Shown: piece after piece, positions 9,986 to 57,860 of the stretch
Layout: the number at the start of each line of letters is the position of its first letter
Position numbering within the stretch: the first letter of the stretch is position 1
NCBI GenBank assembly: GCA_964036045.1
Contig: OZ038380.1
Span: 63,596,591 to 63,660,590 of the forward strand
Length of the DNA stretch: 64,000 nt
Origin: Eutreptiella sp. 'Long Island Sound 2002'
Lineage: Eukaryota; Euglenozoa; Euglenophyceae; Eutreptiales; Eutreptiaceae
Direction: 5' to 3'
The notes under the pieces: generated by a model
The model's database searches: none
What the model was told of the DNA's origin: nothing
The model's input: the letters and a program-made list of their open reading frames with translations, nothing else
Position numbers and translations under genes: made by a program

Positions 9986-9991
9986 AACATC

Positions 9992-23564: not shown

Positions 23565-23620
23565 GTCATGCTCATGCAGTGTGTGTTCGAAAAATTTCGA
23601 AAAGTCCTTCGTAACCAGTA

Positions 23621-25717: not shown

Positions 25718-27460
25718 GTAGATAGGTAGGTGCACTCGGTCGTGGGGAGGCGCCTCATGGTTCCCCCTGGCGTCGCCCCTGTGACGAACAGGAAGAGGCT
25801 CCGCGCGTGAAGAGGGAAGGCGGCTTACTTCCCGCTAGACCTGACTGTTGGCCCCCAACAAAGCGGCCCCGGGCAACGCCGGGAGGGCTGATCGCCGCCA
25901 GCGTGACATGATTGTCTCGCCGGGAGGGTGTGCCCCCGAGCTTGCGCACATCCCCTCCTTTGGGCGGAACCCTAGGGGCTCACCGGACTTCCTGGCGTAT
26001 CCCGTTCCCAAGGCATGCATGCACGTTCTTGGTACTAGGGTTCCGAGGTGCTTGGGTGACGCACGCTCCGCCTCGAGTCCCAAAGCAGCGCAGGCCTTAG
26101 GATGCAGCCTTACCCCCGGTCTCCGGATCTCGTTTGGCCGGGTCACCTGCATGGCACGGGCTGCCTCAGTGCCCGGGCTGTGGGCACTGGGTTTCCTACT
26201 GTTGTGCGGCGTTTGTGTTTGGGTCCGGTTGGCGGTTGGGTGTGGGTTTTGTTAACCTCGCCAGTCCTGGCTGGGGTCTTGGGTGGGTGTGTTTTGGCAC
26301 GGTTTGTGGCGTTGTCCCTCTAGTGTCGGCTGTTTGTGGTGTTCGTGGTTGGGCTTGGGTTTCGGCCTGCTTTTGGGACGTGTGTGGTTTCGTGGGCGCC
26401 CCGCTTGCCCCCCGCCGTTTCCGGTTCCGGCGTGCGGTGTGGGCGTGTCTGTTGGGCCCGGGTCTCGGCTGTGCCCAGCCCTTCTTGGCTGGGTTGTCGG
26501 GGTGTGTTTTTTGCGCTTTTGTTTTTTCTTTTGTTTTTTTTTTTTTTTCGGGCTTTGTGGTCCCTGTCCCTCCATCCCCTTTCTTTCGGGCTGGGCTGGT
26601 GGTTCTCCTTTTTTTTTTTTTTTTTCCGTTTCGGTGTCCCTTTTCCCCGTGGGCCGCTGTTACTGGCTTGGTGTTGCCGGTTTTGGGTGGGTGGTCCCCC
26701 TGTGCCTCTGTGGGGGTCCTGTCTTCGGTGCCTTCTGGGGGGGGGTTTGGCCGCCTGTGGTGGTGTTGGCGGGCGGTTTGGCGGCTGTGGGCTGTTTTCG
26801 TGCCTTTTCCCCCTCCCCCCTCCTTTTTTTTTTTTTTTTAGGGGGGGGCTTGCCTGTTCCTCCCTCTGCCTTCCCTGGGCTGGCGCACGCACTGGCCTGC
26901 ATTCAGTGTTGTCTTCCGGGCTGTTGTCTGCAGTTGCGTTCTGTGTGGCCGCGTTCCGGCCCCATGGGTCGGGTGGGCTATGTACACGGTGGGCTCAGCG
27001 CCCCTTCTTGCCCGGTTTGGTCCTGGCTCTGCCGGCTGGGCGGCTGCGCCAGGCGGCTGCTTGTGGTTATGGGTTAGGGGGCTGGGGTTGTTCGTGTCTT
27101 TTCCCCTCTGCCGTGCCGGCTGTATTCTTCTTGGTGGTCCGCCACCGTTGTCGCCTGGCGCGCTGTGGCCCCGTGTGTGGCCTGCGGTGCTGGTGTGTGG
27201 CGTGCTGGCGCGGCGCCTTCCAGGGTGTGCGGTGGCTGGCTTCGGTTAGTCCCTCAGGTTAGGGTCAGTTGTGTCCTGCTGTGCCGCTCTGTGCCGCGTC
27301 GCGTCGCGTCGTGCTGTGGTGCGTTGCACTGTGGCGCGCTGTGGTGCGGTGTGCTGTGGTCTCGCGTGGTGCCGCGGTGGGTCAGTGGAGGTCAGCCTGG
27401 CCTGTGTCGTGGTGCGGAGTGCGGGCCGGAGTGTGGCCGGCTGGTGGTTGGGGGGTGCGG
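25718..27460 (-). other. 3' region of giant element with three A-tracts
   Basis: No credible ORF; long open frames on both strands are low-complexity. On the minus strand there are three runs of 15-17 A (plus-strand T runs at 26534-26548, 26609-26625 and 26824-26839). The very end is CACCTACCTATCTAC (minus), a short-repeat tail of the kind that replaces poly(A) in several LINE clades. Confidence 0.5.
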
Positions 27461-28160
27461 TTAGGCGTGGGTGGCTCGCTGGGTCCGTGCTGTGGGGGCT
27501 TGGGCGTGCCGCTCGGGCTGGTGGGTCTGGTAGGTCTTCGGGAAATTCTGCTGAATGATCACGGTGTCCTTGGGGCGTGCACACTGACTCTCACCCATGG
27601 ACTCAATCTTCAGCGGGCCTCGCAGACAGGCAGGCGTACTCGGGGTGTAGGAAAGGCGTTCCTTCTCCAAGGCAGACAAACAGAAATCAGGAGTCGGACG
27701 GTGGAGGTGGCTTCCGAACGCCGTTTGAGTGGCGAAAGGCTTGCACTGCAGCTCGGCTGCGCTGGCAGGGACATGTTGGTCCAGGTCGGTGCCGCCGACA
27801 GGCATGAGGCCATACTTCAGGGTCAGGGGGATGTCCATATCTCCGGTGCTGAACTGCAGGGGTCCGGGGCACCGGTAGTAGTCTTGGCACTTCCAGTCTT
27901 CACGGCGCTCGGAGAAGGCCTTGAAGGGGGCACCGTCCAGCAGCACCAAGGCCTTCGCGATCACAGCCTTTCACTTCCCCTTGCGGCGCTCGAAATTCAT
28001 CATGGACGGGATCGGCGTGCCGCCGCAGTGCCAGTCCTCCACTGGACGCAACAGGTTGGTGACGGACGCCCTCACGGACGTGAGACCAGCTGAGATCAAG
28101 TCCCCGGCCGTCAATCCAAGTGCATAGCAATACTCTGCGTCGCACCGCGACTGTAACGCA
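27461..28160 (-). pseudogene. Unknown C-terminal domain of last ORF
   Basis: One frame, interrupted by TGA at 27971-27973, reads CDAEYCYALGLTAGDL, LLRPVEDWHCGGTPIP, then after the stop AKALVLLDGAPFKAF and MDIPLTLKYGLMPVGG, ending near 27461. Composition is balanced with conserved-looking Cys, Trp and Tyr, unlike the low-complexity sequence upstream, so a folded domain is likely. I do not recognise it. The preceding RS-rich ORF runs in another frame here, so an indel near 28150 is implied; the two were probably one protein. Confidence 0.5.
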
Positions 28161-31100
28161 GCCCGGCCCTCATAGCCAAAAGCGTGGTCGCGTGACGGTC
28201 CGTGGGGTTGCCCTCCATGGGGGCCTGTGCCTTGGTCCCCTGTCCTCTGGGGGTTTCGGTCCCTAGTCGTGGGTGCCGCGGCCGTGCCCTCGTCCTCTTC
28301 CGGTGCCTGTGAGGTGGCCTTTGTGGTGGCCGGGGTCGTCGCCTGGGGGTGAGGGCGTGGTGGTGCGCCGTGCGGCGGCGTTCCCTGCGGCTTCCTCTGT
28401 GCCTGTGGCCCGTTCTCCCCGTGTAGGTGTGCCCTCCGTTCTCCGTGTGGTTTCCGGTGGCCGGTCGTCGTGCGCTGGTGTGATCCGCATGGCGTCCGAT
28501 GTTTGCTTCGGTGATGTGTGTTGGGGTGTTTGGTGGGGCTGGAGCGGCGCTGGTCCCCCCGTCGTGGTTTGCCCTTCCTGGGTGTGGGTCGTGGTGCCTG
28601 CCGTGGTGCCCTTTTCCTCCGTTTCTTGGTTCCCGTTCCCGCCCCTTCCTGGTTCTTGGGTGGTTTCCTGCCCCCATGTGGTGTCGCTTCCGGCGTCCTG
28701 TCCCTGCGTGTGCCTGCCCCCACTTGGGGCCCTTCCGTGCCCTCTTGCCTGAGTGCTCCTTGGTGCCCCTTGCCCTTCCCTTGCCCTTGTCCTGCCCCTT
28801 CCTGGTGTGGTGGTGGCGGGAGGGGCGGGGTGGGGAGGGGGCGCCGGCGGCCCAGGCCTGGGGGTGGGTGGCCTGGAGCCACTGGCGGAGGGCTTGGGGG
28901 GTGTAGGGGGGGCAGAGGCCCTGGACCGCATCGCGGAGGAGGGCCTCCCATGCCGCTTGCGGCATGATGGCTTCCGGGGCGGCCTCGTTGGGGTTTGCGG
29001 GTGTGCGGGTGCGCACCTCCTCGAAGGTATGCACCATGTGCACCCCTTCGTGCCTTCCCGCTCCTCCGGCCCACTTCACCCAGCGGCGGAGCTCCTGCAG
29101 AGCGGGGGGAGACCACCAGGCGAGGTGGGCGGGGGCCCGGGGGGGGGAGGGGTCCGTGACCGTGGTCGTGGTGCGACGGGGGGAGGACGTGGACCCGCAG
29201 TGGTGGCGGGGGTGGCGGTGCCTGGGGGAGCGGGAGCGGCGGCGGCGGGGGCTGGGGGTGGAGGACGGGTACCGGCGGAGGAAGGAGCGGGAGGGGGAGG
29301 TGGACATGGGGCGGCGCTGGCGCGCTCGGTGGCGCCCGGGGGAGCGGGAGTGGTGGTGGCGGGGGCTGGGGGTGGTGGATGGGTACGGGTGGCGGGGGGA
29401 ACGGGGAGCCCGGCGGGGCGTGTGGGGGGAGGGGGAGGTGGACGTGGGGCGGCAGTTGCGTGCCTGGCTGCGTCGGGGGGAGCGGGAGTCGTGGTGGCGG
29501 GGGCTGGGGGTGGGGGTCTTGTTTGGCCGGTGGGGGGAGGGGGAGGGGGACATGGGGCGGCGGTGGCGCTTGTGGTGGTGCCCGGGGGAGCGGGCGCGAC
29601 GGGAGCGGGGTCCCGGGGGGTCGTGGTGGCACCTGGGGGAGCGGGAGCGGCGCGAGTGGGTGGTTGAGGCGCGGTGGGAGTGTGGGTGCCGTGGGCGAGT
29701 GTGCCGTGCGGGGGGGGAGCGGGAGCGCTGCCGTTTGCGGGACCAGGCCTCATCGCTCGAGTTGGGCCAGTCCGGAGGCGTCGGCGGCCCCTGGGGGGCC
29801 TCGCGCGGTGCCGCCTGGTACTGGGGGGGGGGGGGGTCCCCCGTCGTCCATGGATCCGCCACATAGGGGTCTGGTGGCGGCAGTGGCTGGTGGTATGGGT
29901 TGAGTGGCTGTCCTTGGCGGGGTTGGGCCCGGGGGGCCCCTTCGGCCATCGGATGGTGGCCGGGGGGGTACGGATACGGTTCCTGGTACGGGGGTGGTGG
30001 CTGGTACGGGGGGGGTGGCTCCTGGCGGTAGGTGGGGTATGCGGGTGGAGCGCTCGGTGGCTGCCATCCTGTCCGCTGGTGCTGTTCGTGCACGGGGGGT
30101 TGTGGCCCGGTGGGGTAGGGCGGTGGGCAGTGGTAGTGGCGGGGGTGGTGTTGGTAGTGGTGGTGGTGGGGCCGCTGGTGGTGGTGGTGTGGGTAGTGGT
30201 GGGGTTGGTGTTGCGGGTATGGCCCATGGACCCCTTGTGGGTTTTCCGGTCCCCCTTGTGGGGGTGGGGGGTCGGGCATCGTGGGCAGTCCCCGGGGCTG
30301 CACTATGTGGTGGGCATGGGGGAAGGGTTGGGGGCCGGGCTTGACGGTGACGGTGGTCGAGGGGTCCCACGTCCCTGGGTCGGTTTGGCCGGCGGTGGTG
30401 GTGGTTTGTGGGGGATGGATGACGGGGCGCTTGGTGACGGGGATGCGGACGAGGGCTTGGACGGGGTCGTGCTGGGTGGCCGTGTCTGCGGTGGTGGTGG
30501 GTGCCGGCGGGAGGGGGGCGCGGGTTGCGGTGGGTGGAGGGTCCTGGCTTGGGCGAGGGCCCGGGCGGGGGTGGTGTCGGGTGGGTTTGTGTCGTTGCGT
30601 CTGCGGTGTTGCGTGTGCTCGCGTGGGCGCCGGCTTGGGTTTGGGGTCGGGTTTGGGGTTGGGGTCCGGTTTGGGTTTGGGGTCGGGTTTGGGGTTGGGG
30701 TCCGGTTCCAGGTTGAGGAGTACCTCTGTCCGGAGGTGTGAGGGCGCCGATGTCGGGTCGGGGGTCGTCCCGGTGGGTTGCCGGGGTTCCTGAGTCGCCT
30801 GTGTGGGGGTCGGGGGGTCGGTGCGTGCGGCCGCGGCTTTGGCTTTCGCCGTGGCCTTGAAGATGAGTTTGGCGGGGAGGGGGGGGTCGGAGGATGAGGT
30901 GGAGGAGGTGGACGAGGCTGAGGATGAGGAGGAGGTGGTGGACGCGGGTTGGGCTGTGATGCGGGCGGGCTTGTGGGCGGCGGCTTCTGCTGCGGCCACG
31001 GCGGGGAGGATGGAGGGCATGTCCTCGGGCTGTAGGTTGGGGGCGGGCGGCTGGGGGGGCCCGGTCGTGACCTGGCGGCCCGGGGGGCGATCTGGTCGGC

Positions 31101-31650
31101 AGCGGCGGGAGAGGGAGGCGCGGGGCTGCGGCCTTCTCCTTCTGGGCTCGGCTGGGCCTGGGTCCTGCAATGTGCGAGGTCGTGTGGGCTGGTGTCCGCG
31201 GGGGGGAACAGTTCGCGTGGGCTGCATTCAGGGGCCGGGGGGCTGGGCCTGGGTCCTCTGGGGTGTGTGTGGGGGGCGTGGGCGGGCCACTGGGTGGGGT
31301 GGGCGTGCCGCGGGGCGCGGGGCTCCCCTCGGCGGGTGTGTGTGGGTTGTCGAGTGTGGGGGGCGGTGAAGGGTGTCCGGCGGGTGGGTGTGTGGCGGGC
31401 GTGTGCTGGTGCTCGGGCGGGTGGGGGAGGCCCGTGTCGCGGGGCCCGGGGCCGCGCGCGATGGTGGGCGTGTGTGGGTCTCCGGTTGAGCAGCGAGAGG
31501 GGGGGGGGCATGGGCGGGGATTGTGCGGCGGGGTGTGCTGTGTCGGTGTATGTGTCCGCTTGTTGCGCGCTTGCGTGGGCAGTTGTAGGCCGGGCGGTTT
31601 GGAGGAGAAGCTTGCCGTCTTCTGCTGCCGCGGCAATGATTTCGCAGACG
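28111..31650 (-). CDS. Pro-rich, RS-repeat ORF of giant element
   Basis: The main open frame runs 31227-28111 (1038 codons). It contains ILPAVAAAEAAAHKPARI, a poly-Ser block, PDPNPKPDPKPKP repeats, a His/Pro/Tyr-rich stretch and then about 200 residues of RS/SP repeats (RSRSPPARH, RRSRSPR) like those of SR splicing proteins. A short ordered segment follows (LAWWSPPALQELRRWVKW, EEVRTRTPANPNEAAPEA). Upstream, another frame (about 31710-31511) carries VHQIRKLVCEIIAAAAED, so the true start is earlier and a frame change lies near 31250-31500. The role is unknown; RNA binding like a nucleocapsid, or nuclear retention, is an inference from composition. Confidence 0.55.
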
Positions 31651-32842
31651 AGCTTTCGTATCTGGTGGACTTCTTGGTCAGTGGTGGGAAGGGGGCATGC
31701 TAGCTTTGGGCTAAGACCCGCGCGGTTGAGGACCCTGTGGATGGCGTGGTACCCGCAGGTGAGGGACTGCTGCGGTCTGGGGGGGGGGGTTTGGTCATGT
31801 GTCTGGGCCTGCCTCGACTTGTGTGTGGGCGTTGGGGATGGCCCAAACCCAGGGCACGGTCCCCGTGGGTGGCCAGCGGCGCTGGATCCAGTGGGTTAGG
31901 CTGAGCATGGCCAATCCCAGGTGGTAGCCCGCCTTCCCTGAGGTGATTTGGGCCAGGGCGCGGGCTGGGGGCGTGTCCCCTGGCTGGAGGACACCCCTGA
32001 GGATCCTGTGCTTGGTGGTGGGGTCCCCCACTGCCCCTGGTGGGGCGGTCTCCGGGGCGAACATGGTGTCTGTCCCCTGGATGATCCATTGCGGGCCGGG
32101 GGACGTAGCCGTAGCGGCTATCACGTAGTAGTGGCCGCGCTCGAGGACCGTAACCCAGACCTCCGGCGGGGGGTGGTCACTGTCTGTAGGTGGGGGGGGG
32201 AGGTCGTCGTCTGGGGTGCAGAGGCCGGCGGCGCGTGGCCTGTTCCCACTGCTCCGGGTGGTTCGGGTCCGCTGGGTGGTCCGTCTCCGCTGGGGCCCGT
32301 CGTAGGCGTACGGTCCCTTGACGCGTGACGTTGATGCCGGTGTCGTGCGTCAGGGCCTGGCCCCACTCGATGGGGGATATCCAGATGTGCTGGCCCCGGG
32401 TGTGTTTGCGGGCTCGCCAGAGCACGAGGTCTACGATGGTCTCGTGGAGGCCGCTGCCTGGGGTGGTCAGGTCCAGGAGGGCTTTGACGGTGAGCTTGGT
32501 CCAGTCCTCTTGTAGGCGGTACCAGCCCAGGGGGGTGGTCGGGGCCCTGTCTTGGAGGGTTGCTCGGAGGAGGTCGGGGTCGCGGATGGTGGCCGGTGTG
32601 AGGGGGGGGTGCCCCGGGTCCGGGGGGGTTGGGCTGGATGGGCTGCCGGGGTCTTGCGCGTCCACGTCGATGGATGGTTGGCCCTGGTTTGGCTCGGCCG
32701 GACTGGGCGGTGCCGGGTGGCTTCTTGGGTGTGAGACGGGTCTCGGGGCGCTGTGGTGGTGCCTTTGAGACCTGTGGATGGAGACGGGGGTCGCGTGCGG
32801 GGCGCGGAGCGGGTTAGTGGATGTCTGGGTCATGCACGGCAT
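31650..32842 (-). pseudogene. Cysteine-protease-like region (C48/Ulp1-like?)
   Basis: Starts at ATG 32842, overlapping the RNase H ORF by 29 nt. The first frame (to 32177) has a Pro-rich start then TPLGWYRLQEDWTKL, DLVLWRARKHTRGQH and IWISPIEWGQAL. A second frame reads EVWVTVLERGHYYVIAAT (His near 32132) and WIIQGTDTMFAP. A third reads PQQSLTCGYHAIHRVL (Cys codon at 31755-31757). His-Asp-Gln-Cys order with a hydrophobic strand after His and Q-x(4)-C-G resembles the C48 family. The His-Cys gap of about 125 residues is longer than in Ulp1. Frame changes lie near C runs of 9 and 11 nt (32192, 31779), so errors or decay are possible. It would process a polyprotein if active. Confidence 0.4.
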
Positions 32843-34631
32843 GGTAATGGATGAGACGCTGCATGTGTTCCCTGGCGGTGGGGTCGGTGAGTTGCTCCGC
32901 GTGTGTTAGCAGGAGGTGTTTGCGGTGTACCATTTGGGCCGCTGCTCTGCGGACTGCTTCTAGCTGGAGGTGTGCTGCTGCCTCCATGGGGCTTTCCGTG
33001 TGTTTGGTGAGGTGTCGGTGCAGGGCCTGTGTCACTGCCCCTCTCATGGTGGCTTCTTTGATCAGGGGGTCCCGGAAGAGGTGTTCGGTGGCCTGGTGTG
33101 CGTGGCTGTGGGTTGGCCATCCTTCGTGTTGTCGCAGGGTTTCCGCCGGGGACCAGCCCACTAGCGTGTCCCTGTCTGTATGGAGGGGGCATTTCTTGAA
33201 GTGTTCCCAGTCCTCCGGGGTGGTGTGGTCGCATGGGCAACGGGTATGTTCGTCGGGGACGTGGATGTGCTTGCGGGCGAGCCATCTGGCGACCCTGGTG
33301 AGGAATGGCAGTTGCTCCCTGAGGAGCTGGATGCGTCTTTTTTGGAGGTGGGCTGGGACGTTTGCTGGGCGGAGCGCTGAGTGGTAGAGGGGGACTTGCA
33401 GTCTGTCCTGGAGCTCCTGGATGTGCGCCCGGCTGTCTGCGTCGCCGAGCATGCGGGCGAGATGTTGGATGGGGTTGGGGTAGTGGTATGCTCTGTCGTG
33501 GGAGGAATAGGGGGCGTCCTCTGGTACCCAGTCCGGGGTCTGATGGGGCTCGGTTACAGGGGGCACGTGTTGGAGGTGTGTGTGGTTGCGGCCGAGGTCA
33601 GGGATCTGGAGGGCTGGTAGGTGTGTTGTGCGCTGGTGTACTGCCTGGTTGTCGACCTTACCATTTCCGTATTGGTGTATGTGGGATTTTCGTTTCACGA
33701 TGTGGAGTTGGACGTAGGGGGGAAGGCTGCGTAGGGCTTTCCAGAGTACCAGTGCCTGGGTGCCGAGGCTCGTCGCGGTTGCTTTGTGAAGTGGTTGCCT
33801 TGCTATGCGGAGGAGCAGATGTGTGTCGACAGTGGCGTCTACCACGAACCAGACCCGGACGATGTGCGGGGAGTGGGGGGGTAGGTGGGCCGCCACCTCG
33901 GTGATGGCGTCGGCCATGGCCCCTAGCTCCCCGTGGGAAGAGGCCCCATAGGTGGTGTGGCCCGTGTGGTGGTCCATGTGGTAGTGTCCCCCGGTGTGGG
34001 TTAGCTGCAGGGTGGCCCCCCCGGTGATGGGCGTGAGGGCGGATTCGCCTGAGGCGTCGGTGAAGAAGAGCCGGTCCGCCGGTGATGGTTGTGGGAGGCG
34101 GCATGGGTTCATGGGCAGATAGGCGTATATGGCAAGGCCCGTGGCGAGGTGGGCTACTGGGGTCGTGGGCTGCAGGATGGGGGTGGCGTACACCCCTATT
34201 CCTTTGGAGATGATGTGCTTCGCTTGGGGGGACAGGGCTATGAGTCCCTGCTCCGGCTGTCCTTGTGTGAGGTAGGAGTAGATGTAGTGGAGGATGTAGG
34301 CTGTGTCGGGGTTTAGGTCGTGGCATGTGAGGGTTTGTGTTCGGTGCTCCGGTGTGTGGCAGGAGTGGTGGAGCGGATAGTAGGGGTGCTCGTGCTTGCC
34401 CGTTCTGCCTGGCTCGTACATGCTGTAACGGATGGCCACCCCTGCCGGGTCGGGGCGGGGGCATGTGGGTGTAGTGGTGAAGAGCCATTTGGGCGCGTGG
34501 TCGGGGTTCCATGCTACCGTGGGGTTAGTGTCTGTGCGGTGGAACCATGGGGCTATCCATGCGTAGGCCTGTGGTGGTAGGTGGGCAGGGGGTGGGTGTG
34601 GTGGCGTGCTATGAGGTGTAGTACGGGCCAC
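32814..34631 (-). CDS. RNase H and zinc-finger ORF of giant element
   Basis: About 605 codons, in the -1 frame relative to the RT ORF and overlapping its end by 79 nt. No ATG near the start (GTG at 34631), and the frame is open only from a TGA near 34655, so it is probably reached by frameshift or reinitiation. RNase H spans about 185-340: D in RLFFTDASGES, E in SSHGELGAM, D in WFVVDATVD and D in GNGKVDNQAVH, a full DEDD set. At about 462-481 CPCDHTTPEDWEHFKKCPLH is the C-x-C...H...C finger typical of LINE C-termini. RNase H removes template RNA during target-primed reverse transcription. Confidence 0.8.
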   Translation of the reverse strand: MARTTPHSTPPHPPPAHLPPQAYAWIAPWFHRTDTNPTVAWNPDHAPKWLFTTTPTCPRPDPAGVAIRYSMYEPGRTGKHEHPYYPLHHSCHTPEHRTQTLTCHDLNPDTAYILHYIYSYLTQGQPEQGLIALSPQAKHIISKGIGVYATPILQPTTPVAHLATGLAIYAYLPMNPCRLPQPSPADRLFFTDASGESALTPITGGATLQLTHTGGHYHMDHHTGHTTYGASSHGELGAMADAITEVAAHLPPHSPHIVRVWFVVDATVDTHLLLRIARQPLHKATATSLGTQALVLWKALRSLPPYVQLHIVKRKSHIHQYGNGKVDNQAVHQRTTHLPALQIPDLGRNHTHLQHVPPVTEPHQTPDWVPEDAPYSSHDRAYHYPNPIQHLARMLGDADSRAHIQELQDRLQVPLYHSALRPANVPAHLQKRRIQLLREQLPFLTRVARWLARKHIHVPDEHTRCPCDHTTPEDWEHFKKCPLHTDRDTLVGWSPAETLRQHEGWPTHSHAHQATEHLFRDPLIKEATMRGAVTQALHRHLTKHTESPMEAAAHLQLEAVRRAAAQMVHRKHLLLTHAEQLTDPTAREHMQRLIHYHAVHDPDIH

Positions 34632-37600: not shown

Positions 37601-38161
37601 GGTGTCGCGGACTGCTTGGTCCTGGGGTGTGGCCTGTCCCCCTCGGTCTGCTGGGGTGGGGGCGGCGTTCATGTCGCCGATGATGACTGTGGGGGCGAGC
37701 ATGGCCATCTGGCGGTATGCCTCGGCCAGGGCTTGGAGGAAGGGTTCCGTTGCTTCGCCGAAGGGGACGTGGGTGTTGATGACGTTGAGTTGCCATCCGT
37801 CCCCGACGACCTCATAGACACCTAGCCTCCCTGGGACGCTGAGGTGGTGGACGAGGTGGACGTGGATGCCGGTTTGGGCGTATAGGGGGGTCCCCTTGTG
37901 CCAGTAGCATTTGTACGCTTTCTGGTCCGGGGTATATATGGGGGTGGTTTCTGGGGGGTCGTCGCGCTGTAGGCCTTGTTCCTGGAAGGTGAGGAGGTGG
38001 GGAACCCAACCCGGCCCCTGTGCCATCGGGAGCTCTCGGAGGGCGGTTGTGGCGTCCTTGGAGTATGTGACGGCCGGGTGGTTGAGGTCGAGGAGGTTGA
38101 CGGTGGCCTCGGTGGGGGCGGGCCGGGGCTGTGGAGGCTTGTGCCCTCGGCCCTTGCCCCG
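34553..38161 (-). CDS. Endonuclease-reverse transcriptase of giant element
   Basis: Open from just after the TGA at 38162-38164 to 34553, about 1200 codons; the first ATG is at 38026. Sequence before that ATG (VNLLDLNHPAVTYSKDA) already looks like an endonuclease start, favouring readthrough from the ORF upstream. The apurinic-type endonuclease has Glu in LLTFQEQGL, GDMNAAP, SRIDVCYGD and the final His in HSPLHIRL. RT has YKKGDWANPDNWRPI, motif A SLDVKGAFPNTPW, motif B GSGVSQGGAEGPF, motif C IGFADDTNL (about 36.0 kb) and NPTKSVAMIKG. All catalytic residues seem present and the frame is intact. It nicks the target and primes cDNA synthesis there. The end overlaps the RNase H ORF. Confidence 0.9.
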   Translation of the reverse strand, partial: RGKGRGHKPPQPRPAPTEATVNLLDLNHPAVTYSKDATTALRELPMAQGPGWVPHLLTFQEQGLQRDDPPETTPIYTPDQKAYKCYWHKGTPLYAQTGIHVHLVHHLSVPGRLGVYEVVGDGWQLNVINTHVPFGEATEPFLQALAEAYRQMAMLAPTVIIGDMNAAPTPADRGGQATPQDQAVRDTIEMLGLVDLTANLEGQPSHFPHQTDAAPSRIDVCYGDPTTIIRAEAQYGPLPLRPTGHSPLHIRLTIPNLPPSPPEDADQGLPPPLKMPPLHDKHAWSQYHRAIDRARRIQPDPTDLLTAMRTAAVACGFQQHPHTDDDQPPTALGDMLHDLWHAKQKLATLLHTDTPQTRRQIHHCRTRIAHIRADLQRWHIHRQQRIAQEHERYAQHELPYKAIRHLNDAMTDTGHRTITTIRQEDGSLTNDPATVLQATQDSFLRQNTPTQDTLDPDTQAKIDRLPRVFNHAQRRHLEKRPFTIHKVRKAIHSLRQHKTPGYDGLPAEAYYHLPAHLLRVLAHRLWDIVTWRTPLPPDWANVVRPLYKKGDWANPDNWRPIVCAVTEVKIVWTILLRRIRPHLDPHIPASLCGAIPGRSPHEAIILQDTIADMDPVDLIIASLDVKGAFPNTPWLLLEAVWKRLGLPFYNFTSDYIRTRKYTVRTGAGLTPFLEPGSGVSQGGAEGPFLYLLVTLPLALAIEQDYPAYAPYPLLLPLIGFADDTNLTVAHTQHDPHAPDPGPTVTQQANDLLDVTVSYLSHNNLIVNPTKSVAMIKGSATPPTLGPQGPPMQVVTTTNHLGVVQAANPEDATLPPKLQSHLAHLPRYASPTTKAHSLSHQSLAYYLTGVLNASIGFQALHLTHPTTALQPATRAGPKAWAAHGGWPTSIPTRAIRAAWPHYGDAIGDEVKAAYTRHTALLLHRMTDNHSPEVREVTAIHLQAAQRARNTCPRWVLHQTGMPTNMNTRLWNHLQLLLPSPHHAILTNHTCPEEGPLAFLCGDLHHHPKGTMHTIDLVGASITAVYVTLPQMRVLHHSGAHHTPFLQLPEWPQYRLFHQYLTQTARAAGHTLPGSKDMRTAYREFTKQHPIPIPATPPYAPTGSKHEPVPPVTGPVPPLTLLLAPNEVKPTQTTVIHHGAKWRIPKHHMTAPDLPKVPQDSQSMPRTCWACDPEAPTTPWPVLHLIARHHTHPLPTYHHRPTHG

Positions 38162-38164
38162 TCA
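38120..38164 (-). promoter_or_regulatory. Putative UGA-CGG readthrough signal
   Basis: Minus strand: TGA (38164-38162), then CGGGGCAA (38161-38154), then a stem GGGCCG-A-GGG (38153-38144) pairing with CCC-CGGCCC (38128-38120), loop 15 nt. ORFs on both sides share one frame. UGA-CGG followed after about 8 nt by a stem-loop is the type II readthrough layout known from furoviruses and related plant viruses. Confidence 0.5.
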
Positions 38165-41100
38165 GGGAGGGGGACTGGGGCTCGGGGACTTTTTGCCGGT
38201 TGGTGGGCGTTTGGGTAGGCGCGGCGGGGGGAGGCCTTGGCTCCACTCCGGGGGGAGCTCCCCAGTGTATTTGGTGCCTCTGTGGGCCTTGTTCTCTTCG
38301 GTGCGGAGCCGGATGGGGTGGGCGCTGATGAGCTCCAGGGTGTAGCCGACTGGTTTGTCCGGGGCGCTGCTGCCTTGGTCTAGCTCCTTTTGGCGGTGCC
38401 AGATCACCCGGATCTGTGGCCCCCCGTTGTCCCCCGGTTCCTTGAGGCGGTACTGGATCGTGCCCTCACACCAGATCCAGTCGCCTGTGTGGTCGTTGCG
38501 GAAGGGCTGTTGGACCTTCGCACCTTTTTCGAATCCTGGGTACGCTTTGGGCGGGTGCTGTGCTGGTGGCGGGGGGGAGGATGATGAGGATGCCTGGTCC
38601 GGGTGGGGCGGTGGTAGTGGTGGGAGGGAGGATGACGAGGATGCTTGGTCCGGGTGGGGTGGTGGTATTGGTGGGAGGGAGGATGACGAGGATGCTTGGT
38701 CTGGGTTCGCCGGGTGGGTCGGGTGTGATGTGGGGGGTCGGCAGGTCGCTGCTTTTCCGGCTTGGCTGGGGGCGGGTGCGCCCCTTTGTCGTCTCGTTCG
38801 CTTGGGTGGGACTGGAGGTAGCGGGGCTGGGGGGGCTTGGGGTTTGAAGAAGGGGTGCGTTGCTTGCTGGTCTGGATCCCTCAGTGGGGGTTCTGCCGGT
38901 GTTTGCATTTTCGCTTTCGCGTGGCTGCGTATGATGTCGGCGAGCTTGCGCACGGTCTCCGGGGGATCTGTTGGCCATGGCAGTGCGGCGGGGCTGTCGT
39001 CGAAGGGGTGGTGTAGGTGGTAGTTCCTCATGGCCTTGGCCTGCATGACCCAGGCCTCTGTGGGTTCCGGTGTGTCCAGGCCGTTGGGGGAGCCTTGAGC
39101 CCAGTAGAGTGCTGTGTGGAGGGCTTCCCAGGGGGCGCCTTCGCGGCCTGTGAGGGTGGTGGCTTGGAGGAGTCGCTGCTGGCCCCGTGGGGGGTCTTCC
39201 GGGTCTATTTCCGGGGTATAGGCCTGGGCCGCCATGAGGACTCCGTGTGCCCAGTGGAGGACCCACCATTGGGCGTCCGCTTTGAGGATGTGGATGGCGG
39301 GTTGTTGGGGGGGCGTGTCCAGGGTGTCCCACGATGCGATGGCTAGTGGTATCCTGGAGGGCTGGAGGTGTGGGGGGGCCTTGCGGCTTAGGAGTTGATC
39401 GATGTGGAAGGGGGTGACGGGATCTTTGGGGCCTTGGGGTGGTGGGGGCATTGCTGGGATGGTTGTGGGGTCCCAGTGGCGTTCGTGGGCGGCGAGGGTG
39501 TACAGGGCGGCGGTGATGATGTGGTGGGCTTGCCCCTCCAGGACGATGTGGCGCTCCGTGCCGAAGTCCTTTGGTAGGTGGGCTGCGGGGTGGACGGTGA
39601 TGTGGGCTAGGGCGCGTTGGTGGGCCTTTTTTCCCCCGTCTGGCGCCTGTGTCCGTTTGTCCCCCGGGATGTGCTGGTGTTGGTGTTTTGGTGGGGGTGG
39701 TCGCAGGGCGAGGGATTCTACACCGTGGAGGGGGATGGCGTGTTCCCCCGACCTGTTGGGCAGGATGTATATGCCCTGGTCTCCCGGTACAGTGCCCAGG
39801 TACATGTTGCCCGTGATGGTGGGGGCCAGCAGCGGTTGGCGCAGGGGCGAGGTGCATTGGGTGGAGCAGGGCGGGTCATGGTGCTCACACCGGGGGTGGT
39901 CGATGCCGTACGGGGTGACGTGTACGGCGAAGGGTCCAACGGCGCGCTGGAGTTTGTGGGGTTGGATGTTGTGGAGGCGCGCCACCGCCCGTGTCTGGGA
40001 GCGCCCTTCGCTGATCCACACGGCGTCTGCCCGCGACGCCGCTGGGTTCAGGCAGCCCGTGGTGATGCCTGTGATCGTGCGGTTGTGGGTGGTATCTGAT
40101 ACCCTGGCGGGGGGGGCGCCGATGCGGGGGATGGTGTGGTCGTCGTGGAGGGCGCGGGCCTTGCGCCTCGCATCGTGTCGGTGCCGGGCCTCCTGGGTGG
40201 GGGTGTGCACACCCGTGTGTTTGGGCTTCTTGTTGCGGTGGTCTGCCGTGTGGAAGGGGGTGGGCCAGGAGGGGGCGTGGTGGAGGGTGGGGTGTGGAAG
40301 GTCCCCCCGTGTTGCCCATGTGTACAGGGTGGTCGCGGCGGCCCCTTCCGCCTGTATGGTGCATCGCTCGTCGTGTCCGCGACGGGTGACGAGGACGTTG
40401 AGGGCCGTCAGCTCATACACCTGTGTGGTGTGGGGGAGGTGGCGGGTGACGGTGATCTTGGCGGCGTCGTTTTTGCGGGTGTTGGTGTGGGGGATGATGT
40501 AGTGGGTCGCCCATTCGTCTTGGGGGGTGTGTTCCGTCGGGTCTAGCTTGAGTGGGGGGTGGAGCGGCTTCGGTGTTGGGGGCTTGTCTTGGCCATTCGC
40601 GTGGGGCGCCACTTTGGTTTCGACCAGGTATTGTGGGCCCCAGGTTTCCGGGGCCCCTACCTGTGTGGCTGCCGCTGTTGCGGCTTGGAGGAGGGCGGTG
40701 GTGTTGGTGTCTAGAGGGGGGGCCCTCGGTTGGGGGGTTAGGGTGTCATGGTCTTGGTATGCCCACCAAATGGTGTAGCCTCGTTGGGTGTTGCGGTGCG
40801 GGGTTTGGGTCTGGGCTTGCTGGATGGATAGGGGGGTCTTGATGTCCTCTGCTGCTTGTGGGTTTATGGGTGTGGCGTACGCCCATACTCCCGGGGCGTG
40901 TATGCCGTGTGGTGCTTGGCCTACTCCTCGTATCGGGTGTAGGGTGTGGTGGGTGCGTGTGAGCCCTAGATGTTCTTGGAGGAGGTCCCCCCGGATGTCC
41001 TCCCACCGTTGCTGCCAGGTGTGTGTGTGGTCATCGGGGGCGGGGTAGGTGATGACGATGGCTTGCCATGGGGTGGGGCCTGGATGCACCGTCATAGGTG

Positions 41101-41392
41101 CCGACGATGTTTGCGGGGGTATGTGGACGGCGTGGGCGGGGGCTGCTGTTACGGGGTCTCCTTCTGTGGGTGTGATCGTGGCATCGCCTTGGACGGTGAG
41201 GAGGAGGTGGTGGCGGTCCGTCGGTAGTGCCCAGGTGGTGGTGGGCTCTGTGATGGAGTGGAGGCGGATGGCCTGGAGGCCCGGTAGGATTTCGTCCCAT
41301 CGGAGTGTGCCGTTGTGGACCGCCCATTCCCGCGGCAGGTCTCGAAACCCGTTTCGGTCTGGGGTGGTGCGGTGTTGTGGGGGGAGCTGCAT
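38162..41392 (-). CDS. 1076-aa ORF of giant element
   Basis: Intact from ATG 41392 to TGA 38162; an in-frame TAG at about 41430 limits extension upstream. Residues about 45-120 (HHLLLTVQGDATITPTEG, APAHAVHIPPQTSSAPMTV) read like a cupin-type beta barrel with its GD...P...H-x-P pattern; this is weak similarity. The middle is rich in His, Pro and Ala, with CEHHDPPCSTQC near residue 505. Three 17-residue repeats (HPDQASSSSSLPPLPPP) lie near 890-940. A small barrel-like segment follows at about 950-1030 (GAKVQQPFRNDHTGDWIWCE, IRVIWHRQKELD), Tudor/chromo-like by eye. The position before the endonuclease matches ORF1/gag of LINEs. I do not recognise the whole. Confidence 0.6.
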   Translation of the reverse strand: MQLPPQHRTTPDRNGFRDLPREWAVHNGTLRWDEILPGLQAIRLHSITEPTTTWALPTDRHHLLLTVQGDATITPTEGDPVTAAPAHAVHIPPQTSSAPMTVHPGPTPWQAIVITYPAPDDHTHTWQQRWEDIRGDLLQEHLGLTRTHHTLHPIRGVGQAPHGIHAPGVWAYATPINPQAAEDIKTPLSIQQAQTQTPHRNTQRGYTIWWAYQDHDTLTPQPRAPPLDTNTTALLQAATAAATQVGAPETWGPQYLVETKVAPHANGQDKPPTPKPLHPPLKLDPTEHTPQDEWATHYIIPHTNTRKNDAAKITVTRHLPHTTQVYELTALNVLVTRRGHDERCTIQAEGAAATTLYTWATRGDLPHPTLHHAPSWPTPFHTADHRNKKPKHTGVHTPTQEARHRHDARRKARALHDDHTIPRIGAPPARVSDTTHNRTITGITTGCLNPAASRADAVWISEGRSQTRAVARLHNIQPHKLQRAVGPFAVHVTPYGIDHPRCEHHDPPCSTQCTSPLRQPLLAPTITGNMYLGTVPGDQGIYILPNRSGEHAIPLHGVESLALRPPPPKHQHQHIPGDKRTQAPDGGKKAHQRALAHITVHPAAHLPKDFGTERHIVLEGQAHHIITAALYTLAAHERHWDPTTIPAMPPPPQGPKDPVTPFHIDQLLSRKAPPHLQPSRIPLAIASWDTLDTPPQQPAIHILKADAQWWVLHWAHGVLMAAQAYTPEIDPEDPPRGQQRLLQATTLTGREGAPWEALHTALYWAQGSPNGLDTPEPTEAWVMQAKAMRNYHLHHPFDDSPAALPWPTDPPETVRKLADIIRSHAKAKMQTPAEPPLRDPDQQATHPFFKPQAPPAPLPPVPPKRTRRQRGAPAPSQAGKAATCRPPTSHPTHPANPDQASSSSSLPPIPPPHPDQASSSSSLPPLPPPHPDQASSSSSPPPPAQHPPKAYPGFEKGAKVQQPFRNDHTGDWIWCEGTIQYRLKEPGDNGGPQIRVIWHRQKELDQGSSAPDKPVGYTLELISAHPIRLRTEENKAHRGTKYTGELPPEWSQGLPPPRLPKRPPTGKKSPSPSPPP
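38575..38725 (-). repeat. 51-bp tandem repeat encoding poly-Ser/Pro units
   Basis: About three units of 51 bp (17 codons), each with ATGACGAGGATGCTTGGTC-like plus-strand sequence (GAGGATGATGAGG, GAGGATGACGAGG). In frame with the 1076-aa ORF. Confidence 0.75.
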
Positions 41393-41409
41393 TGTGGTGA
41401 TGGGGTGGG

Positions 41410-42008
41410 TGAGGGTAGGCCCGGTATGGGCCTAAAAGTGGACAATGATTGCAAAAAATGGGGTGGGTGAGGGGCTCTGTGCGGGGTTGGTCTTGTGTGG
41501 TTGATGGTGATGGTGCCTGGGGCATCTCTTCGTCCAGTTGCTGTGGGGCTTTTGCCTTCTGGAGCTCTGCACTGATGGTTGCGGAGACATCTGGGAGGGT
41601 GGGGGAGGCGGGGGGGTGGGGTGCCGGATCGTTCCAGGTGATGTGGTATTCCTCCGGGTTCTCGGGGCTTTGCTGTACGGTGATGGCGGCTATGGCGTCG
41701 TCTTCAGGTGTGCATCGGTGTGGATTGTGGTCGAGGGGGTGGAGGGTGACGGTGTGGCGGTGTTTCCAGCTGTGGAACGCTAGGAGGGAGTGGAGGCCGT
41801 GTCTAGTGTCCCCGGGCGGGCTGGGGTAGGTTTCGGCTGCTGCCTCCAGGAAGGCGTCCGCGGTGCCTTTCCAGGTGTCTTCCCAGAGAAGGTCTTCCTC
41901 TGTGCCCCACTCGTTGTCGTTCCCATTCTCCTGCTTCCACCCCTGGAGGGTCGCGTGGTCCTCAGGGATGTCTCGTTGGACGGACTGGTAGTACTGCTCG
42001 GCGTCCAT
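41410..42008 (-). CDS. Acidic ORF1 of giant element
   Basis: From ATG 42008 (MDAEQYYQSVQRDIPEDH) the text is acidic and Trp-rich (NDNEWGTEEDLLWEDTWKG), then HGLHSLLAFHSWKHRHTV, AIAAITVQQSPENPEEYH and a Ser/Pro tail. The formal stop is far downstream (41031), but beyond about 41410 the frame is only a shadow of the next ORF, whose ATG at 41392 lies in the +1 frame. No domain recognised. Upstream of 42008 the same frame is open to 42779 but low-complexity. Shortness and acidity are compatible with a regulatory or assembly protein, which I cannot support further. Confidence 0.45.
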
Positions 42009-42299
42009 GGGGGCTAGGGTGCTGGCCAGCGTGGCGTAGATGTCCTTTGGGGGGGGGGGGCGGTGGGGGCGTGGCGGCGCGGCCGGGGTCGGGCTCCTCT
42101 CGCTGGTGTTCCGCGTTCCGGTCTGCGATGGACGCGGGGGATATGGAGCGTGGTGGCATGGGGTGGTTGGGCTCCTGCGGTTCCGTGGGTTGCTGGTGGG
42201 CTTGTGGGCGCGGGGCCGTGGCTGCCAGTAGGTGTCGGATGGCCGGGAGGATGTTGTAGTCGTCTTCCCAGCAGTGAGCTGGAGCACACGCCCTGTCAG

Positions 42300-45200
42300 G
42301 GGAAGCGGGGGGGGGGGGGGGGTGTTGCGGAGCGGTGTACGACAGGGTGGGCGACGCGTGCGGGTGGTGGCGTGCTCGCTCTGCCGTTCTGTTTCCCGCG
42401 GGCCCTGACCCTGGAGGGGTGGTGGTGATGTTGGTGGTGAGGGTGGTGTGGGCGCCGGAGTGGATGATTGTGTCGGTGGCGGCGCTGTTGGGGAGGGTGG
42501 TATGGGCGTTAGCGTAGATGAAGTTGGTGCTGGGCCATGGTTGATGGTGGTTAGCTGGTGGGTCAGCTGTTGTCGCTGTCGTCGTCGCCGGTGGTGTTGG
42601 TGCCTCTGATGACGAGGTGATGGTTGGTGAGCATGGCGCGGGTGACGTATGGGCGTATGTGGTGTTGTCGGTGGTGTCGATAGTGAGGGTGTTGTTTCTG
42701 GTCGTTGGGGCGTAACGTTTGTGGGCCGGATGTGGCGGTGGTGGCGAGGGTGCTGTAGTTGACGGGTGGTGTGGCCCACGTTGCCTCCGCCGGTGGAGGT
42801 GTGATGGGTGCCGTGCCGGCGTTGGCGATGGTGGGGTGCCGCGGGTGGTGTATTGGTTGTTGGTGGTGGAGATGTTCCTGGATTGTGGGTAGTCCCCGTC
42901 CGGCGGTGGTGGTGTCGGTGCTCGTTGAGGCCGTTGGCGACGCCGGGGGTTCCTGGCCTCGCGCGGGGTGGTGGTGGCGGTGGTGAGTGTAGGCGGTGCC
43001 ATGGGCGGCGGTACCATTGACGGCTCGGCCGGGCGTGCTGGTGCCGGTTTCGGTTGTAAGTGTGGTTCGGGGTGCGGCATTGGTGGGTGGCATCGACGGT
43101 GGGTGGCGTGACTGGTGGGTGGCAGCGGTAGGGGGGTGTCGGTTGTTGGTGAGGCTGTCGTTGTCGGTGTTCCGGTTGGTGCTGGTGATGGTGTCGCTGG
43201 TTGTGCAGATGGTGGGGGGTGGGTAGGGGGACCCGTACCCTGGGGTTGTCGTGGCGTTCGGTCGACGGTGGTGCTTTCGGTGGTGTTCTTGTGAGTTGGC
43301 CGGGAGTGTTGTCGGCGATGCTCTGGCTGGTTCCGTTTGTGCGGGCTGTGTGGTTTTTGCGTCAGGGGTCGGTGGCGTTGGTGACGGTGCTGTGTTGGGG
43401 GTCGGCGCCGGTGGTGGCGGTCCGACGGTGAGGGTGCCGGGGACGTTGGGTGGGTCCGCATTGTTGGGCCTTCTCCTCGCCATTCCTGGCGGAGGGTGCT
43501 GCCGGTGTCGCTGGTGGCGAGGGTGTGGTGGTGTTGCTGTGGTGTTTTGTGCTGCTTGGGTGGGTGGTGGGGACCCCTGGTTGATGTTGACGATGCTCCG
43601 GGTGATTTCGATGCGGTGGGTGTGATGGTGTGTGGCGTTGCTGTTTCTACCCTTGGCTGGGGGCCTGGTGGGTGGCGCTGGTGGCGTTTGTTCGCCAGCC
43701 CTGGTGGCGTCCTTGGTGTTGTCGTCCATGGGGGCGCCGTAGGTGTTACTCTGTGCCGGGGTCGTGGTGGTGGTGATAGGGGTGTTGTGGGTGACGGTAC
43801 CTCGGTTCGTCGTTGGTGGGGTTGGCGGTGGTGTGTCTCGTGGTGGTCTGGTGGCGTGGGTGTTTTTGGTGTTGGTTCTGGGTGGCCTGCGTGTTGGTGT
43901 TCGGTGGTTCCGGGCGTGCCATTCGTGGCTGGTGTTTGGCCGGCTTGTGGTCCTGGTGGTGTCGGTTGTCCCTGGTGTTGGGATATTCCCTTCGGCTGTC
44001 CTTGGGTCTTTAGTGACAGGTGTTGCTTCGATTGCGGTTTAGGGTGGCGCCGTCGCCGTGCTGCCGCTGTCGGTGGTGCCGGTGTTGGTGTTGCTGGGGG
44101 CGCCGCCGGGGGAGCTGTGTGTGTTGGCGTTGTAGGGTGTTGTAGGTGTTGCCCTGGCGGTGTTCTGACGGCGGAGGGGGGACCTCGCCACTCCTGGCGG
44201 AGGTTCCCATGCGCGTCGTTGGCTGGTGGGTTGGCCTTGGCCCCCTCGGTGTCCTTGCTGCCGATGGCGTCCTACCGGGATGCGGGATGCGGGATGCTCC
44301 GGGTTGCTGTCGGTGAGGTCGCACTGCTGGTGGTGCCGTCGGTGATGCCGGTGGTGAGGTCGTTGCGGGCGTTGCTATGGTTCACGGTGTCTCTGATGTT
44401 GTTGATGCTGCTGGTGGTTGGTGTGGGTCTGTGTGTGGGTTGTCAGTGGCTGCTGCTGCTGCTAGTGGTGGTTCTGGGTGCGGGTCGGTGGGTGGCGCGG
44501 TTGGAACGCCTTGGGTGTAACTTGGCCGTTTGGTGGTTTCTTGTGTTGGTCCGTTGTTGGCGAGGGTGTCTCAGGCGTCGTGCTGGGTGTCGGGGTTGCT
44601 GGTGTTGCCGACGGCGTCCCTGTTGGTTCCGGGTACCTCCGCTTCTGAGGGTGTTGTGGTGTTTGGTTTGGGTGTTGGCGGCGGTGCAGGTGTGGGTGTC
44701 GCAGTTCCTGGCCCTGGGTCTGGGCGTGGCCGTTTGGGTGTTGCTGGGTGTGGGCGTTCGCCACTCCTGGCTGAGGGCTCGGTGGCGTTCGTTCGCCAGC
44801 CGTGCTGGCGTCCTTGGTGACGCCGTTGCTGGGGGTGCCCTAGGTGGCGGGGCCGTGGTGGTGGTGGTAGGGGTGGGGGCGCTGTAGGTGACGGCACCTC
44901 GGCCCGTCGTTGGTGGGGTTGGTGGTGGTGTGGATAGTGCCGTGGGTGTTGGTGGCGTTGGTGTTGCCGATGGCGAGGGTGCCATAGGTGTTACTTGGTG
45001 GTTGGCGTGTGTCGTGGTGGTCTGTTGGCGTGGGTGTTGTTGGTGTTGGTGCTGGGCGCGGCCTGCGTTTGGGTGGTCGGCGGTTCCGGGCGTGCCACTC
45101 GTGGCTGGTCGTCGCGGTGTTGGTGACGGTGCTGGCGAGGGCGCCGCCGGCGGAGCTGTGGGCGATGTCGAAGGCGAGGGCGCTGCAGGTGTTGCTCTGG

Positions 45201-46400
45201 TGGATGGTGGTGTTCTGACGGCGGGGGTGGGACCCCGCCACTCCTGGTGGAGGTACCCATGGGTGTCGCTGGCCCGCGTGTTGGCTCGCTTGGTGTCGTT
45301 GATGCCGATGGTGTTGTACCGGGCGGTGTCCCCGTGGCGGTTGCCGTTGACGCTCTGGTTTGTTGTTGCTGAGGCCGGTGTCGGTGTCGGTGAGGTCGTT
45401 GTGGGCGCCGCTATGGTTCACGGCGTCTCGGACGTTGCTGATGCTGCTGGTGGTTGGCGTGGGTCTGTGTGTGGGTGGTCAGCGGCTTGTGTTCAGGGCG
45501 GTGGCCGGTTTCTGTGGCTCTGTCTGGGAGGGTGTGCAGTAGGTGGTGTGGTCTGCTGGTGATGCTGTTGGTGTAGGTGGTGCAGGCGATGCTCCGGGTG
45601 GTGTCCTGGGTGAGGGTGGTGTTGGTGGCGCCGGTGGTGTGGGTGCCGCCGGGGATTGCATGGTGGATGCCGCCCTGCGGTCGCTTTGGTGGCGAGGGTG
45701 TTGCTGTGGATGGTTCCGGGCGTGTGCCCTCGCTTCCCCTGGCCGGGGCTTGGTGGTTTGTTGGCTCACCGGCTGTGGTGGCTTTGGTGTCCTCCGGTCG
45801 CGGAGGTTGCTGGTGGCGACGCTGATGGTGGGGTGTTGCCGGCGATGGTGTGCTTGATGCCGTTAGCTTGGGTGATGTAGGTGCTGGAACCGGCGGTGGT
45901 GTGCGTAGGTTTCCCAGGCGATGGTGCCGGCGCTGACGGTGTTGGTGAGGCTGTTGTGCTGGCTTGATTTTTGGTGGTGTTGGTGTTTCCGATGGCGTGG
46001 ATGCTGGTGGCGGTGGTTCTGGGTGCGGGTCGGTGGGGGACCGGATCGGCTGGGTGCGGTCGTTGGTCAGTGTTGGGTGGCTTTTTGTGTTGGTCTTTTG
46101 TTGGTGAGGGTGTCCTATGTCCTAGTGTTTTGGTGGGTGCTGGGGTCGCTGGTGTTGCCGATGGTGCCTCCGTTGGTTTCGGGTGTGTCCGCTGGTGAGG
46201 GTGTTGTGGCGTCCGGTTGGGGCGTTGGTGGCGGTGCTGGTGTGGGTGTCGCAGTGCCTGATCCTGGTGTTGGGCGTGGCCGTTCGGGTGTTACTGGGTG
46301 TGGCCGTTCGCCACTCCTGGCTGCGGGCTTGGTGGGTCCTCCTTTGTGTCCTAGCGGTTTCTGGCGGCCCTGCAGCCCCCCTGACGGGGGGGGTTGCTGG
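42300..46400 (-). repeat. Diverged tandem repeats in 5' part of giant element
   Basis: Blocks recur at long spacing: 43789 with 44886 (CGTCGTTGGTGGGGTTGG core, 1,097 bp apart), 44158 with 45208 (GGTGTTCTGACGGCG, 1,050 bp), 44394 with 45430 (GATGCTGCTGGTGGTTGG, 1,036 bp), 44670 with about 46218 (about 1,550 bp), 44467 with 46010. GCCACTCCTGGC(T/G)G recurs at least five times. Frames here are Thr/Pro/His-rich on the minus strand and have no protein character. They look like promoter-type monomers or an old satellite carried by the element. Confidence 0.6.
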
Positions 46401-47282
46401 GTTCCTGTTGTTTGGGTTCGTGTGTGTTGCGTGTGTGGTGCGGGCGGCGCCTGCGCTTTGGTGTGTGGTGTGCGTTTGTGGGGCTCGTGTCGGTGGCGGT
46501 TGTGGGGGTGTGTGTTGTGTGCACGCTCGGGCGTGTGTGCGGTGTGTTGGTGGTGCGTTTGGGTGCCTGTCCTCGCCTTTCTGGGCGTGGTTCGGCGGCC
46601 CTGTTTCGTGTGGGGGCTGTGTGTCGTGGCCCCCCCCCTGTCTCGGCTGTGTGGTTCCCCGCCCCCCCTGGCTGGGGTCTGTTGGTGGTGTGTCCCCCTG
46701 CCGTCCCCTTTGCGTGCCCTCCTCCTTCGGTCTCTTTTCCGTGTCGCTTGGGGCGGTGTTTCTCTGGTGTCGTGCCCGGGCCTTCCCGGCTGTGGTGGGT
46801 GGGGGGGGGTCCTTGTCGCCGGCTCGGGTCCCTTCCCCTGGTGTTTCCCCGTGGGGGGGCCGATGCTTGCACTCCCCGTCAGGGTGTAACTCTGCTGTAC
46901 GGGCCGTCCATTTGTACTCGCTCGGTACAAATGGACCTGCTCCGTAGCCAGGTACTCCGGCCGTTCCCCACACCGGGGTTGGGTACACTGTAGGTCGCTG
47001 GGGAGTCCTTGCGGGATAGGTGTGTCTCTTGCCTGCCCCGATGGACGGTGTGCCCTACCCGCAGCCCCTCGCTGGGCCCGAACCGCAGTACGTGCCGTGG
47101 GGAGTGCTCTTGGTCAGGCCCATTGGTCACCCCCCCAGGGCCGGTGCCACCGCGGGCCGCTGACCAACGGTCCCGGGCGTATCCCACCTTATTGCGTGTG
47201 CTCAGGTGGGGCCGATACGGTCACCGGGGGGGCCCCCAAACCCCTGAGGTTGGGTCCCTCGCCTGCGTCTCCCGTCGGCCCT
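46401..47282 (-). other. 5' terminal region of giant element
   Basis: GC-rich, no credible ORF. It contains a perfect 11-bp hairpin, TCCATTTGTAC (46907-46917) with GTACAAATGGA (46925-46935), loop 7 nt. The 5' end abuts the right flanking duplication at 47283. I looked for an HDV-like ribozyme fold at the 5' end and could not support one. Confidence 0.45.
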
Positions 47283-50233: not shown

Positions 50234-50250
50234 GGGGGCGGCTCCGAAGA
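50228..50250 (+). promoter_or_regulatory. Putative UAG readthrough site between gag and protease
   Basis: GAG TAG GGG GGC (50228-50239) separates gag from protease in one frame. Copy C has the same codons at 9437-9448 despite many other differences. UAG followed by GG-purine-GG resembles the gammaretroviral gag-pol readthrough context. Confidence 0.45.
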
Positions 50251-57841: not shown

Positions 57842-57860
57842 AGGGGGGAGTAAGAAAAAG
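57842..57860 (+). promoter_or_regulatory. Polypurine tract of family B
   Basis: AGGGGGGAGTAAGAAAAAG lies directly before the 3' LTR, the position of the plus-strand primer. Confidence 0.75.

Follow-up and report, generated by a model that had tools for sequence, protein, structure and literature searches.

A giant non-LTR retrotransposon of Eutreptiella with three open reading frames and a putative readthrough stop codon

Can reverse transcriptase genes and several additional open reading frames (ORFs), spread over more than 21 kb, belong to one retroelement, and how might such an element be expressed? Described long interspersed nuclear elements (LINEs) are mostly 4-8 kb long and usually contain one or two ORFs, and each is presumably copied at its target from a single RNA in one pass. 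The question is raised by a minus-strand block of 21,565 bp in a 64,000-nucleotide stretch of Eutreptiella sp. 'Long Island Sound 2002' (C3:63596591-63660590; contig OZ038380.1, assembly GCA_964036045.1), hereafter called the window. Searches for further copies were run on the 2.28-Gb assembly that contains it. We consider it highly probable that the block is a 5'-truncated copy of a giant (~25.3 kb), autonomous retrotransposon without long terminal repeats (non-LTR) that has three ORFs, the second of which would be reached by readthrough of a UGA codon.

The block is flanked by an ungapped duplication of 1,859 bp with 33 mismatches, and the ends of the duplication coincide exactly with both borders given in the first-pass annotation (25718 and 47282). 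The element is G+C-rich, with 60-76% in 1-kb bins versus 40-58% for the bins outside it. A second copy on C2 (copy 2, read in three pieces) matches element positions 1-21565 in order with 87-96% identity; there are indels and one 113-nt gap, and in the repeat region the alignments overlap. Copy 2 is the only further copy of the same family (family A) read end to end. The exact flanking duplication and the collinear copy 2 bear out the position, the minus strand and the unity that had been proposed for this unit. The reported absence of LTRs also stands, as self-comparison of the window detected no direct or inverted repeat linking the element's own two ends at the sensitivity used.

Upstream of element position 1, copy 2 continues as C-rich tandem repeats of ~353 bp, and this part of the 5' leader (L049:1-2828) contains the recurring motif CAGCCAGGAGTGGCG. 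A search with the upstream DNA of copy 2 returned 42 rows: 38 of them are other copies, and the remaining four are copy 2, two small pieces and a stretch of C507 with the same sequence. The same start base (L053:3487) is found in 33 of these 38 copies, and two more start within 4 nt of it. This shared 5' end gives a full element of ~25.3 kb, and full-length copy 2 occupies C2:158707181-158732453 (25,273 bp). Because the shared end lies further upstream, the window copy is 5'-truncated and has no counterpart of the first 4.3 kb of copy 2. Thus, of the clean borders described at first pass, the 3' end is exact and the right border is a truncation point. By-eye comparison placed three other 5' ends (C6:84158093, C2:147758813 and C24:30757859) 12.3-13.0 kb upstream of a same-strand reverse transcriptase (RT) match. 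We note that the C507 stretch (C507:10880-13380) matches the DNA upstream in copy 2 with 100% identity and is perhaps an unmerged haplotype.

The RT search of the genome yielded 39 scored places including the window's own, and the others are 96-97% identical to it. The open frame is exactly 1782 codons long in 29 of the 39 places, and 5 of the 39 have an internal stop. When the last 783 nt were used as the query, 40 scored places were found including the window's own (a lower bound, drawn from 3,169 first-look candidates), and 38 of the 40 begin exactly at border 25718. All ten 3' termini examined consist of CTAC units followed by a flank starting with CT. Across the scored copies, a constant 3' end with its tail is accompanied by variable 5' truncation. 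Copy 2 is flanked by a 17-bp repeat (TCAAGGATCTTCTCCAG), with one instance 1 nt past the 3' end and the other 99 nt ahead of the 5' end; we interpret the pair as a probable target duplication with additional sequence on the 5' side. The (CTAC)n ends and the variable duplications would be the expected outcome of target-primed reverse transcription with variable second-strand cuts. Element 3' ends at C2:157172546, 157318907 and 157470418 lie on the same strand, ~146 and 152 kb apart, resembling a segmental duplication.

The G/T-rich part upstream of ORF1 appears to be a repeat-rich leader, with a full length of ~9.3 kb in copy 2. Two separate ORFs, an acidic one and one of 1076 aa, had been annotated next to it. 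These are ruled out as separate genes: a frameshift lies between the two parts in the window copy, and other copies have one ORF for a single protein of 1262 aa, ORF1 (P0092, 509 member sequences). ORF2 has 1782 codons when counted from the preceding stop and encodes 1737 aa from its first AUG (P0009, 758 member sequences), with one frameshift near 34571-34589 in the window copy. The Pfam matches in the window are RVT_1 (E 4.3e-16) and Exo_endo_phos (E 2.6e-5, right at its cut-off); the latter domain has no match in P0009 and scores above cut-off in P0029, the protein of a second family (family B, ~52% identical to family A in the RT region). The best PDB match of ORF2 is LINE-1 ORF2p. By these Pfam and PDB matches ORF2 encodes a LINE-type RT with an apurinic/apyrimidinic endonuclease-like (APE-type) endonuclease, so that two of the four domains first annotated are supported by Pfam, the endonuclease at its cut-off. 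Among 30 aligned loci (30 of the 39 RT places, median distance 1.7%), variation in ORF2 is 1.52% at third codon positions versus 0.35% and 0.34% at the first two, and the rough ratio of nonsynonymous to synonymous substitution rates (dN/dS) between the window and copy 2 is 0.26.

ORF3 is a single open frame of ~1368 codons in copy 2 and in the window copy it is split among five frame pieces. Its ATG (32842) sits inside the end of ORF2, whose stop is at 32814-32816. A relative of 776 aa is 73% identical over half of ORF3, and the family-B homologue shows 29% identity (E 8e-7). We take ORF3 as a gene because of the long frame in copy 2, the 776-aa relative and the family-B homologue. Only the order of an H-D-C set of residues is conserved among three sequences, and ORF3 would at most be a candidate protease. 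The protease-like region and the RS-rich ORF described earlier belong to one frame. In one protein (P0117), a different RT with RNase H is joined to a piece of ORF3, as might result from the insertion of another LINE in ORF3.

ORF1 and ORF2 lie in the same frame, interrupted only by a single TGA. The TGA is present in 30/30 family-A loci, and the next codon is CGG in 29/30 and TGG in 1/30. In the one family-B copy, of 27, whose stop context was read, ORF1 is followed by TGA CGG GGC and then by ORF2 in the same frame. A hairpin lies 3' of the stop, and in both families it contains 5 bp, a 2-nt bulge and 6 bp, with four inner pairs added in family A. The loop is 18 nt shorter in family B, and the arms are kept letter for letter. 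Folding z scores are -4.1 and -3.4 for the two families when the stretches are cut to the hairpin, and -2.9 for 120 nt. The inner stem begins 8 nt downstream of the UGA in both families. Type II readthrough involves UGA followed by CGG or CUA, often with a stem-loop ~6-12 nt downstream (PMC11166343). UGA-CGG is found in the family-A loci and in the family-B copy, and the inner stem falls within this spacing in both families. Moreover, the motif LDLNHPAV, which we take to be the endonuclease Asn motif, precedes the first AUG of ORF2, and a protein begun there would lack it. This makes UGA readthrough the most economical reading of how ORF2 might be expressed. We also note that third positions in the first 138 nt past the UGA (L009-L038) are no more variable than the others (3/46 columns), while comparison blocks elsewhere in ORF2 mostly have 5-13 columns and one other block has 0. 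Such low variation is what a constraint at the RNA level would give.

The element is not confined to family A. In family B, a frame of 1774 codons is present in 27/27 scored places, 2 of the 27 with one internal TGA. The family-B copy that was read contains ORF1, ORF2 and ORF3 in the same order as family A, and the ORF1 proteins of the two families are 33.6% identical (E 9e-77). This family-B copy has two further stops, a TAA in ORF3 and, higher up in ORF1, a TGA; we take both to be probable decay. Directly after ORF2, the family-B stretch L052 (sense 3-2315) has an additional open frame of 771 codons with a globular-looking stretch, and at E 1 this frame matches neither L049, L050 nor the window element. 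In a protein tree, families A to D form separate groups, all four with 100/100 support. The tree covers 52 of 84 proteins; the 32 dropped, including the distant LINEs P0083-P0091 and P0117, covered too little of the RT core, and the tree consequently has no outgroup. Its bootstrap is unsettled, and the family-D rows deviate in composition. This genome has no fewer than three families of the lineage, A, B and D (the last, P0076, with 53 scored places), and a fourth, C, is known from the protein collection, with one member on a JGI contig (P0034). These results support the proposal of a giant LINE lineage with an expanded gene set: many copies have common borders, and the ORF order is kept in the family-A copy read throughout and in the family-B copy. 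ORFs beyond the endonuclease, RT and RNase H are present as first claimed; they are fewer than the polycistronic arrangement envisaged, with three ORFs in total, of which ORF1 and ORF2 are connected through a putative readthrough stop.

Table 1 Features of the retroelement copy and its flanks in the window.
Feature	Position	Strand	Basis or remark
Target duplication copy adjoining the element 3' end	23859..25717	.	Ungapped alignment to 47283-49141
Retroelement copy, family A, 5'-truncated, 21,565 bp	25718..47282	-	Borders from flanking duplication; copy 2 matches 1-21565 in order
3' tail, (CTAC)-type units	25718..25732	-	Same in 10/10 copies examined
ORF3	28720..32842	-	H-D-C region, proline-rich linker, RS-rich part, C-terminal domain; frameshifted in window
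ORF2 (APE-type endonuclease, RT, RNase H motifs, CCHC-like finger)	32814..38161	-	Pfam RVT_1, Exo_endo_phos; P0009
CCHC-like zinc finger RCPCDHTTPEDWEHFKKC	33189..33242	-	Motif reading
RNase H motifs D-E-D-(H)-D	33645..34067	-	Motif reading; kept in families A and B
RT catalytic motif GFADDTNL	35984..36007	-	Motif mapping
Presumed endonuclease Asn motif LDLNHPAV	38069..38092	-	Upstream of the first AUG of ORF2 (38026)
Hairpin 3' of UGA, GGGGC-2 nt-GGGCCG ... CGGCCCGCCCC	38115..38160	-	Folding; same arms in family B
In-frame TGA parting ORF1 from ORF2, then CGG	38162..38164	-	Family-A loci; one family-B copy
ORF1	38162..42008	-	P0092, P0093; acidic ORF 42008-41439 plus 1076-aa ORF frame 41431-38165
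Repeat-rich 5' leader, remaining part	42009..47282	-	Internal repeats; ORF1 start in copy 2 at L049:7764
Target duplication copy adjoining the truncated 5' end	47283..49141	.	Ungapped alignment to 23859-25717

Several observations weigh against a giant three-ORF element with a leaky stop. The Pfam scan returned no match for ORF1, and in the tail of ORF1, a poorly aligned stretch, the third-position excess is weak (2.0, 1.8 and 2.4% by codon position). It also found no RNase H in ORF2, so that RNase H and the zinc finger, both present in the first-pass annotation, are assigned by motif reading only. ORF3 matches neither Pfam nor PDB, including any profile for a Ulp1/C48 cysteine protease. Between copy 2 and the window the dN/dS of ORF3 is ~0.84, and 0.79 for its H-D-C part, to be read beside 0.96 and 1.45 for wrong frames and 1.16 for the 3' region; this ratio is weak evidence of a gene. 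The 30 family-A loci are close kin, and their kept TGA alone thus says little. The outer stem of the hairpin begins 2 nt past the UGA, and only the inner stem fits the published spacing. Finally, two short truncated copies (L044 and L046) lack a target duplication in the flanking DNA that was read. A long target duplication as a rule of the family was dropped in view of these flanks and of the 17-bp repeat in copy 2.

The UGA could also be an ordinary stop, and translation of ORF2 could depend on termination-reinitiation or begin at a non-AUG codon, a situation known from other LINEs whose ORFs adjoin or overlap. In favor of this, the overlap of ORF2 and ORF3 suggests coupling elsewhere in the same RNA. 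We regard an ordinary stop as unlikely, since the shared frame with its single stop is found in two families that are about half identical in ORF2, the CGG and the hairpin arms are kept exactly despite the different loop length, and the first AUG lies past the endonuclease Asn motif. It is very improbable that the UGA is a selenocysteine codon or is removed by editing or splicing: UGA with a close hairpin is also found at selenocysteine redefinition sites, but here the CGG after the stop fits leaky readthrough (PMC11166343). Copies with only endonuclease, RT and RNase H, which the first-pass annotation had considered as a sign of unrelated neighbouring DNA or misassembly, were not seen, one same-family copy having been read end to end. 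We reject the idea that a LINE of ~6 kb lies by chance in unrelated or misassembled DNA, which the usual 4-8 kb of LINEs might favor, because the copies have common 5' and 3' ends, the same unit recurs collinearly in copy 2, and relatives of ORF1 and ORF3 adjoin ORF2 in family B.

Under the readthrough explanation, a long RNA with the repeat-rich ~9.3-kb leader would encode ORF1, and a fraction of ribosomes would pass the UGA-CGG with its hairpin into ORF2, resulting in an ORF1-ORF2 fusion of ~3,045 aa. Translation of ORF3, whose start lies within the 3' end of ORF2, probably relies on coupled reinitiation. The ORF2 endonuclease would then nick the target and the RT would prime on the (CTAC)n tail, and this target-primed reverse transcription could give rise to the 5' truncations and to target duplications of variable length. 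A bolder view, possible and held only tentatively, is that the element independently evolved a retrovirus-like plan. In such a plan, ORF1 would be gag-like, the hairpin-driven leaky UGA would fix a minor share of ORF1-endonuclease-RT-RNase H fusion, an ORF3 protease might mature the fusion, and the RNA would be ~25 kb long with a structured 9-kb leader.

The window copy is inserted within an LTR element, whose LTR-like repeats (23620-24319 and 57859-58557) are 94.7% identical. ORFs of this host element in the window contain RT, RNase H and integrase domains. A related pair of segments (9292-11267 and 50083-52061, 88% identical) likely represents two copies of one LTR retroelement group. P0008 (27464-27970), located in the 3' part of the element, was dropped as a gene for lack of support.

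Dozens of copies extend as far as the 5' end of this 25-kb unit, which raises the question of how the RT manages such a length. The leaky stop between ORF1 and ORF2, if true, would give LINEs another way to set the ratio of their two proteins, a long-standing question. The closest known counterparts are, we presume, the RNase H-bearing APE-type LINEs of the I superclade (I, R1, LOA and Ingi). The present element resembles them in having APE endonuclease, RT, RNase H motifs and a C-terminal CCHC-like finger in this order, a short-repeat 3' tail and 5' truncation, and differs in its ~25 kb, three ORFs, ~9-kb repeat leader, in-frame ORF1-UGA-ORF2 arrangement and ORF3. Dualen/RandI elements have both an APE and a restriction-like endonuclease; the Pfam scan of ORF2 found no restriction-like endonuclease, and no dedicated search for one was made. 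In the open-licence literature (titles and abstract openings) we found no LINE this large or with such readthrough, which is not proof that the element is undescribed. Terminons are Penelope-like elements and not LINEs, and stop-codon readthrough is better known from viruses. Terminons of bdelloid rotifers are likewise giant RT elements with several ORFs, but they carry GIY-YIG-like ORFs, unlike the present LINE (PMC5718144). NeSL/Utopia LINEs share with it a possible cysteine protease, Ulp1-like in their case; they have a restriction-like endonuclease and an N-terminal protease, whereas the present element has an APE and a separate ORF3 of unproven protease nature (PMC4640811). For the Drosophila telomeric non-LTR element HeT-A, gag expression is reported to need a frameshift (PMC5009743). 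Recoding in non-LTR elements as such is thus already known, and HeT-A shifts frame within gag, whereas the present element has a putative leaky stop between ORF1 and ORF2. Gammaretroviral gag-pol and type II UGA readthrough are similar in placing a leaky stop before a C-terminal extension, with UGA-CGG and a stem-loop in the latter; gammaretroviruses use UAG and a pseudoknot, in contrast to UGA-CGG in a non-LTR element here (PMC11166343). The surprising part would be this retrovirus-like recoding, ORF1-stop-ORF2, in a LINE.

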